Origin: Bacteroidales bacterium
GTDB taxonomy: Bacteria > Bacteroidota > Bacteroidia > Bacteroidales > GCA-2748055
NCBI GenBank assembly: GCA_023138875.1
Contig: JAGLOO010000015.1
Location: 1 to 64,000, forward strand
Direction of reading: 5' to 3'
DNA length: 64,000 bases
Positions 40,465-42,297 of the stretch are shown in pieces. Each line of letters opens with the position of its first letter. Within the stretch, counting starts at the first letter, position 1. The position numbers and the translations under genes are program-made. Below the pieces are notes generated by a model. It searched no databases, was not told the DNA's origin, and saw nothing but the letters and a program-made list of their open reading frames with translations.

Positions 40465-41868
40465 TTAATAATAGCTGGAACCATCCCAGCAGTGGGTGCA
40501 AAGCTTTTCTTTAGGAAGCCCGATGGCTTCTACAAGGTCATCCAGATGCTGGTATATCAATGAGTCAATACCAAGGTTTTTGGCGATTTGTTCTACCATG
40601 GCCCGGTACTTATCCGAAGTTGGATCGGCATATTCATCAAGGTCTTTATCTTCACCTTTCAGCTGTTTGATGGCTTTTCGTGTTGCAAGCTCAAGGATGG
40701 ATCTTGACTGGGAAAAATTCAGATAATTGCAGGGATATATAAGGGGTGGACAGGCAATTCGCATATGGATCTCACTGGCACCGGCCTGACGAAGATCGAT
40801 GGTGTTGTCTTTTAACTGGGTTCCCCTGACAATGGAATCATCGCAGAATACCATCCGTTTTCCTTTAATCACCTCCCCGTTAGGGATCAGTTTCATTTTT
40901 GCTACCAGTTCACGCATCTCCTGGTTCTGGGGCATGAAACTCCTGGGCCAGGTGGGAGTATACTTGGAATAGGCTCTTTTATAGGGAAGGCCATTTGCGT
41001 TGCCGTATCCTATGGCATGGCCAATCCCCGAGTCGGGAATGCCGCATACAAAATCTGCTTTCACGGTATCTCTTTTTGCCAGTGCGGCTCCGCAACGGTA
41101 CCTCACTTCATCCACATTAATCCCTTCATAGTAGGAAGGAGGATAACCATAATATACCCAGAGGAAAGCACAAATCTGCATTTTTTCTCCTGCTGGTTTC
41201 AGGATGTTGTATCCATCGGCTGTGATCTCAACGATTTCACCCGGACCCAGGTAATATTCGATTTCATAGCCTGTGTTAGGGAATGCGGATGTTTCTGAAG
41301 CCACTGCATAGGATCCTTCCTTTTTACCAATAATCACAGGCGTTCTTCCCAGCTTATCCCTGGCCGCAATGAACCTGTTAGAAGTCAAAATAAGCATGCT
41401 GCATGAACCTTTTACCTGGTTATAGACATTTTCAATGCCGGATACAAAGACATCTTCTTCACAGATCAGGTTGGCCACCACTTCAGTGGGATTGACATTC
41501 CCCTGGAAGTTTTCGGTAAAGTGCTTTCTTTTTTTGAGAAAAGATTGTTCCAGGTCAGCAATATTCACGATGCGGCTTACAGAGGTGATGGCAAACCTGC
41601 CCATATGAGAATTGAAGAGGATCGGTTGCGGGTCCGTATCACTGATGACACCCATACCGCTGAACCCATTGAATTGCTCCAGGTCCGATTCGAATTTGCT
41701 TCTGAAGTAACCGTTCTCCAGGCTGTGGATAGATCTTCTGAAACCCTCCTCGTTGTTGTAAAAAACCATCCCGGCTCTCTTGGTGCCCAGGTGAGAATGG
41801 TAATCGGTTCCGTAGAACACATCATATACGCAATCTTGCCTGGAGATTGCACCGAAAAAACCGCTCAT
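40465..41868 (-). CDS. PurF-like amidophosphoribosyltransferase with Ser in place of the catalytic Cys
   Basis: A 467-residue PurF homologue: Ntn-hydrolase glutaminase domain (1-230) and phosphoribosyltransferase domain with the PRPP loop VFCDDSIVRGTQ. Normal PurF begins with Cys after Met removal, which attacks glutamine. Here the ATG is followed by AGC (Met-Ser-Gly-Phe-Phe-Gly), so the nucleophile is absent. The four Cys positions that bind a 4Fe-4S cluster in Bacillus PurF appear to be kept (QICAFLW, YPCNYL, LCTHC). The protein may use free ammonia, or may be a regulatory or redox-sensing paralogue. No other purine genes surround it. Confidence 0.9.
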   Translation of the reverse strand: MSGFFGAISRQDCVYDVFYGTDYHSHLGTKRAGMVFYNNEEGFRRSIHSLENGYFRSKFESDLEQFNGFSGMGVISDTDPQPILFNSHMGRFAITSVSRIVNIADLEQSFLKKRKHFTENFQGNVNPTEVVANLICEEDVFVSGIENVYNQVKGSCSMLILTSNRFIAARDKLGRTPVIIGKKEGSYAVASETSAFPNTGYEIEYYLGPGEIVEITADGYNILKPAGEKMQICAFLWVYYGYPPSYYEGINVDEVRYRCGAALAKRDTVKADFVCGIPDSGIGHAIGYGNANGLPYKRAYSKYTPTWPRSFMPQNQEMRELVAKMKLIPNGEVIKGKRMVFCDDSIVRGTQLKDNTIDLRQAGASEIHMRIACPPLIYPCNYLNFSQSRSILELATRKAIKQLKGEDKDLDEYADPTSDKYRAMVEQIAKNLGIDSLIYQHLDDLVEAIGLPKEKLCTHCWDGSSYY

Positions 41869-42039: not shown

Positions 42040-42297
42040 TTATAAGAGGAGGTGTTGTTTTTCATGTTTTTGCCACCCAGCCTGCGATTCATACTTCACA
42101 AAATACCAGAGGCCATCTTCATCAGCCTGTGATTCGTAATCCACGAAATAGACCTTCAGATCGGCCTGCGATTCATATTCAACAACAAACACCTTGATGT
42201 CTGCCTGGGACTCGTACTTTACTTTAAACACTTTTTGTGCAGATATCCCTGGAGCTATTATCAGCAGGCACAGCGATATGAAATGTTTCAGATTCAT
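42040..42297 (-). CDS. Small secreted YESQA-repeat protein (DUF6150-like)
   Basis: An 85-residue protein: signal peptide (to GISAQ) followed by four copies of a unit of about 11-16 residues centred on YESQA (VKYESQADIKVF, VEYESQADLKVY, VDYESQADEDGLW, VKYESQAGW). The units alternate short strands and a conserved turn, as expected for a small beta-repeat protein. It matches what I know of the DUF6150 family of Bacteroidetes, whose function is unknown. It is secreted or periplasmic. A GTTAGAA/TCTAAC palindrome lies just before its start codon. Confidence 0.75.
   Translation of the reverse strand: MNLKHFISLCLLIIAPGISAQKVFKVKYESQADIKVFVVEYESQADLKVYFVDYESQADEDGLWYFVKYESQAGWQKHEKQHLLL

Follow-up and report, generated by a model that had tools for sequence, protein, structure and literature searches.

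Our findings depict a family of glutaminase-less purine-synthesis enzymes that is widespread in bacteria. PurF catalyzes the glutamine-dependent committed step of purine synthesis in textbook accounts. The family member encoded in the window (the whole stretch of 64,000 nucleotides analyzed here) is a PurF-like protein lacking the glutaminase Cys, and it is likely to act as an ammonia-dependent PRPP aminotransferase (phosphoribosylamine synthase) whose glutaminase has been permanently lost. This reading draws on genomes in which the Cys-less protein is the sole PurF type, on purL neighbors, on a conserved PRPP site, on family-wide loss of the glutaminase site, and on the use of NH3 by Escherichia coli Cys1 mutants; a rewritten flexible loop and a purL adjacency confined to a minority of loci and absent from the window count against it. 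Some genomes have a glutaminase-dead form as the only PurF-type protein found, which is evidence from nature that this step can proceed in the absence of glutamine use.

The Cys-less gene and its start

The gene (40465..41868, minus strand) specifies a 467-aa product that combines a degenerate class-II glutaminase domain with a phosphoribosyltransferase domain. Its best matches are PurF proteins, among them Bacillus subtilis PurF (1ao0; E value of 2.2e-52, aligned over residues 3-401), and the PurF equivalog model TIGR01134 scores it at 212.1 bits, below the 350-bit cut-off. The ATG start codon (41866-41868, minus strand) is followed by AGC (41863..41865, minus strand), which sets Ser in the place of the glutaminase Cys1 within an N terminus reading MSGFFGAIS. 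The earlier note on this DNA, which described this replacement, was exact in ORF, strand, and coordinates.

The start call is sound, since only six codons (LKLFSF), none of them for Cys, separate the ATG from an in-frame stop upstream in the window and since all 165 members of the family set described below, the window's included, have their ATG in the same column. These observations rule out a wrong start in the window, an eventuality that the earlier note had itself raised. A Cys occurs somewhere in the open frame 5' of the ATG in 36/165 members, the window's not among them, so an upstream start is possible for some single members.

Loss of the glutaminase site

At each of 332 loci, the protein that best matched that of the window was taken, and the 165 distinct full-length sequences so obtained, including the window's own, form the family set; L085 (387 aa), the broken or partial L120 and L129, L123 (running off the contig end), and identical duplicates were left out. 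Residue 2 is Ser in 81 members, Gly in 81, Ala in 3, and Cys in none. It is Gly (19) or Ser (18), and never Cys, in 37 further Desulfobacterota members, none of which is identical to any of the 165. The conserved feature is the absence of Cys, not Ser as such, Gly being equally common. On the suggested check of Ser2 conservation, Ser itself varies, and close homologues, far from strictly retaining Cys, lack it in 165/165 cases. Among the carriers with names are Bacteroides luti, Alkaliflexus imshenetskii, Tangfeifania diversioriginum, and Desulfobacterales MAGs, and the window's close named relatives belong to Bacteroidales.

The remainder of the glutaminase site was compared in an alignment of the 165 family members with 10 canonical PurF proteins and 10 proteins of the 633-aa type introduced below. 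The canonical Arg of HRGQE is replaced by Leu/Met and that of GHVRY by Ser in 165/165 members; the oxyanion Asn of HNGN has become Val/Ile/Ala, also in 165/165, and the Gly next to it is kept in 19. Five of the 165 have Asp in the column of the canonical Asp (SD.E), in a poorly aligned stretch where placement is uncertain. We take these canonical glutamine-site residues to be those named Arg26, Arg73, Asn101, and Asp127. New conserved residues (SHLGT, ISDT) are found in the former glutamine pocket. The features that assign a protein to glutamine-using PurF (EC 2.4.2.14), i.e., the N-terminal Cys, the glutamine-site residues, and, for the window protein, a score above the TIGR01134 cut-off, are absent; if such a protein is annotated as an amidophosphoribosyltransferase, the name claims a glutamine activity unsupported by these sequences. 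Ser2 was also considered as an Ntn nucleophile, an idea that was dropped in view of the equal frequency of Gly and the loss of the oxyanion Asn.

A FastTree phylogeny of the 165 family members and 37 canonical PurF proteins separates the two sets (support of 0.88 for the family) and places six changes of residue 2. Three Cys-bearing PurF relatives of 35-37% identity (L383-L385, Desulfobacterota sample), left out of the tree, have in common with the Cys-less family a CV.D motif and a Gln after the PRPP loop; they may be its nearest Cys-bearing kin.

PRPP loop, Fe-S positions, and fold

The PRPP loop and the four Fe-S Cys positions remain, as the earlier note had rightly seen. The PRPP-binding loop spans residues 343-351, DDSIVRGTQ (40816..40842, minus strand), and its core DSI.RGT is present in 165/165 members, the variation around it amounting to Glu for D343 in six and Ile for V347 in one. 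The four Cys that mark the Fe-S PurF subtype are Cys233 (41170..41172), Cys380 (40729..40731), and the pair in C457-T-H-C460 (40489..40500), all on the minus strand and all invariant in 165/165 members. The same four are found in 10/10 canonical PurF proteins aligned. The Cys-less protein is predicted to bind a 4Fe-4S cluster.

Residues 302-311, KYTPTWPRSF (40936..40965, minus strand), stand where canonical PurF has KN.Y..RTFI, the PurF flexible loop. K302, T304, T306, W307, R309, S310, and F311 of this altered loop are found in 165/165 members; a divergent subgroup from Desulfobacterota shows variation at T306-P308 and F311. An AlphaFold2 model built with 45 family sequences (pLDDT of 88.9, pTM of 0.88) predicts the two-domain PurF fold, with pLDDT below 50 at residues 305-311, i.e., in the rewritten loop. 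When this predicted model was compared with the PDB by Foldseek, the top 17 matches were all PurF (1ao0 with an E value of 2e-37 and TM scores of 0.83/0.85). The protein has the predicted whole-length fold, the PRPP loop, and the four Fe-S Cys in common with the B. subtilis Fe-S PurF (1ao0, 1gph; TIGR01134); it differs in its rewritten flexible loop and in the loss of Cys1, of the two Arg, and of the oxyanion Asn.

Comparison with six relatives gave a pN/pS of 0.10-0.14 for residues 1-230 and of 0.08-0.12 for residues 231-467, with dS often saturated. The values for the first segment argue that the degenerate glutaminase domain is not decaying, and strong selection together with the new conserved residues suggests that this N-terminal domain does more than decay. 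A lone mutation or a pseudogene was ruled out by the low pN/pS and by the absence of Cys in 165/165 members.

Spread across bacteria

Within a single family of the order, 66/101 genomes carry the Cys-less gene. Even sampling of the phylum (296 genomes) gave it at 60% identity or more in only three, G000, G078, and G230, and in the phylum of genome G593 it was detected at 48% identity or more in 59/297 genomes, 37 of which were read. Among six Desulfobacterota genomes with the Cys-less gene, four have a canonical PurF above the cut-off, G592 has an N-terminal piece of one, and G595 has neither; the four suggest that the gene is mostly an extra in Desulfobacterota. One copy from the Desulfobacterota sample (L377, genome G724) is 73% identical to the window protein, an identity hinting at transfer or contamination.

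Genomes with and without a Cys-bearing PurF

The presence of a normal PurF elsewhere in the window's genome, a point that had been put forward as a check, was borne out in the form of a Cys-bearing PurF-like protein of 633 aa (L003, C87:72645-74543) with the motifs HKCGIALIRL, RNRGQDGAG, and DDSIVRGTT. Besides this protein, the TIGR01134 search of the genome returned the Cys-less gene, a 613-aa frame matched in its glutaminase part only, presumably GlmS, and a 533-aa frame that we take to be AsnB. The 633-aa protein shares the PRPP loop DDSIVRGT with the Cys-less protein and differs from it in that its type keeps the glutaminase Cys, both Arg, the Asn, and the Asp (10/10 aligned), whereas three of the four Fe-S Cys are missing from it (10/10 aligned). 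The 633-aa type also has Asn-Phe in place of Asn-Gly at the oxyanion site, and L003 has about 15 extra residues past the Cys and scores far below the PurF cut-off with TIGR01134.

Each of the 198 genomes of the order was screened for the Cys-less gene (E ≤ 1e-90), the 633-aa type (E ≤ 1e-60), purD (E ≤ 1e-40), and canonical PurF (model cut-off), with 57, 169, 191, and 9 genomes positive, respectively. A Cys-bearing PurF accompanies the Cys-less gene in 45 of its 57 genomes (633-aa type in 42, canonical in 3). The other 12 have the Cys-less gene and purD without a 633-aa or canonical PurF, and 11 of them are at least 93% complete (G296, 99%; G298, 98%; G375, 100%; G395, 99%; G402, 99%; G406, 98%; G414, 99%; G418, 93%; G420, 99%; G436, 99%; G478, 100%; G480, 81%).

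A PurF-model search at E ≤ 0.01, covering these 12 sole-PurF genomes and 4 others, revealed no Cys-bearing PurF in the 12. Apart from the Cys-less protein, it matched there only frames of GlmS type (so named for the region and length of the match), proteins of AsnB type, PRPP synthetases, and a single 54-aa stretch at chance level; in the control genomes G300, G323, and G416, which carry the 633-aa type, the same search detected it at 72-91 bits. In G375 and G478, frames of 626-627 aa raised the possibility of a hidden 633-aa PurF, which was rejected because both are of asparagine-synthase type and have no PRPP loop. A 555-aa frame of G406 and weak matches in G420 (C6) and G436 likewise turned out, from their sequences, to be asparagine-synthase-type proteins or PRPP synthetases. 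Matches to purH were found in 17/17 genomes tested, including all 12 sole-PurF ones, and exceeded the cut-off in six. Those of purM type were also found in 17/17, above the cut-off in two only and below it in 10/12 sole-PurF genomes (32 bits in G480; 49 bits in the window's genome).

Among 165 genomes with purD that are at least 90% complete and at most 5% contaminated, the Cys-less gene is present in 11/12 genomes without both Cys-type PurFs versus 37/153 having one, with a Fisher p of 4.8e-6 that is too small because the genomes are related and it is uncorrected for kinship. The 11 sole-PurF genomes in this test are spread over nine families, and opposite single types occur in the same genus (Cys-less only in G298, 633-aa only in G416). 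Absence calls for PurF can fail, as indicated by G328 (95% complete), which has purD and purH with neither a PurF type nor the Cys-less gene found. G339 (93% complete) yielded no purD and none of the three PurF types, and no PurF type was found in six further genomes of the order that are less than 90% complete.

Proposed function

In the mechanism that we favor, the phosphoribosyltransferase half would take free NH3 and PRPP to form 5-phosphoribosylamine. In the window's genome, the Cys-less protein would be an ammonia isozyme beside the glutamine-using 633-aa PurF, an arrangement comparable to that of AsnA and AsnB; the 12 sole-PurF genomes would have no other entry to the purine pathway. 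Sequence features, genome distribution, and gene linkage are observed directly; we infer catalysis, ammonia as the nitrogen source, and the division of labor in the window's genome. Cells of the 12 sole-PurF genomes probably start purine synthesis directly from ammonia, because no PurF-type protein other than the Cys-less one was found in this dozen of related genomes.

Replacement of Cys1 by Ala or Ser in E. coli PurF abolishes the use of glutamine and leaves that of ammonia, as stated in section 6 of PMC3261824, citing Mei and Zalkin 1989. The same section, printed in 2011, itself proposes that crenarchaeal PurF' is an ammonia-dependent PRPP aminotransferase. By this published description, PurF' is likewise a PurF paralogue without the N-terminal Cys and otherwise PurF-like, often with Ala or Val in that place (PMC3261824), whereas the bacterial family has Ser or Gly. 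Each crenarchaeon studied there has one normal PurF and one PurF', whereas the bacterial form stands as the sole PurF type in 12 genomes. The sole-PurF genomes are therefore new evidence in relation to that section, and they make the archaeal proposal directly testable by complementation. Mlab_0150 of Methanocorpusculum has Ser for Cys, as here, but is described in section 6 of PMC3261824 as a copy that arose from the local PurF relatively recently and not as a separate family. Our search of titles and abstract openings, with thin coverage of subscription papers, returned nothing on the bacterial Cys-less family.

Gene neighbors and alternative readings

Neighbors were surveyed at 127 distinct loci of at least 6 kb, and the counts are descriptive. 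purL is adjacent to the Cys-less gene in 7/127 loci, the window not being one of them. In five loci from four families (L279, L282, L286, L288, and L328), purL directly precedes the Cys-less gene on the same strand, with gaps of 13-109 bp; all five were confirmed by NF003672 at 1462-1503 bits, and one of these belongs to the sole-PurF genome G436; tail-to-tail arrangements occur in L314 (confirmed) and L117 (by clustering only). carB is upstream of the Cys-less gene in L150, from the sole-PurF genome G402, and adjoins it on the same strand, with gaps of 39-252 bp, in 9/41 Desulfobacterota loci, four of the nine confirmed (the carB-adjacent loci are L373-L376, L379, L386, L390, L391, and L138). 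A glutamate-synthase-domain gene lies within five genes upstream in 5/41 Desulfobacterota loci (one confirmed). In close relatives, carAB was not found beside the Cys-less gene, carB adjacency being confined to G402 and Desulfobacterota, and most loci, the window included, have none of the purL, carB, and glutamate-synthase-domain neighbors.

The recurrence of ammonia-channelling synthetases among these neighbors, purL in 7/127 loci and carB in 9/41 plus L150, raises a different source for the ammonia. Phosphoribosylamine would still be made, with ammonia handed over within a complex by the glutaminase of another protein, for instance a PurL or CarA domain. We regard such docking as rather unlikely, given that neighbors vary by lineage and that most loci have neither purL nor carB. 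In the same vein, Cys-less enzymes encoded beside purL or carB might dock on the glutaminases of those very synthetases and provide lineages without a glutamine-using PurF with a trans-channelled first step, an idea that we hold to be doubtful. The protein might instead phosphoribosylate an acceptor other than ammonia, the phosphoribosylamine of the sole-PurF genomes coming from elsewhere. The residues newly conserved in the flexible loop (KYTPTWPRSF) and in the old glutamine pocket (SHLGT, ISDT) would suit a new substrate, but purine entry is what the purL neighbors and the pattern of replacement suggest, and no other PurF-like transferase was found in the 12 sole-PurF genomes, which makes this reading unlikely.

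The earlier note had proposed either an ammonia-using enzyme or a regulatory one sensing oxygen or redox state. The first part is favored indirectly by the sole-PurF genomes, the purL neighbors, the conserved PRPP site, the lost glutaminase site, and the published NH3 use of E. coli Cys1 mutants; the second gains no support. A pseudoenzyme that senses oxygen or redox state through its Fe-S cluster would accord with the invariant Fe-S Cys and with the co-occurrence of a Cys-bearing PurF in 45/57 genomes of the order, yet canonical PurF has the same four Cys (10/10), the core of the PRPP loop is intact, and 12 genomes have the Cys-less form as the sole PurF-type protein found. A pure sensor role is disfavored in particular because genomes with purD and purH show no other PurF-type protein, and we judge it very improbable. 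An artifact in the form of a wrong start, a sequencing error, or a decaying duplicate, from any of which a single-residue difference can come about, has a negligible chance of explaining 165 of 165 sequences that agree on the start and on the absence of Cys, with no Cys ahead of the start in the window's frame and a pN/pS of about 0.1. Ammonia-dependent phosphoribosylamine synthesis thus stays our preferred reading.

No conserved general operon was apparent among the 127 loci, the commonest neighbor cluster occurring in 20/127 and the window's own neighbors in 4-7. The gene adjoining the Cys-less gene in the window (42040-42297, minus strand) encodes an 85-aa protein with four near-repeats of YESQAD that matches DUF6150 at 48.5 bits, and in 4/127 loci its cluster occurs no more than two genes away from the Cys-less gene.
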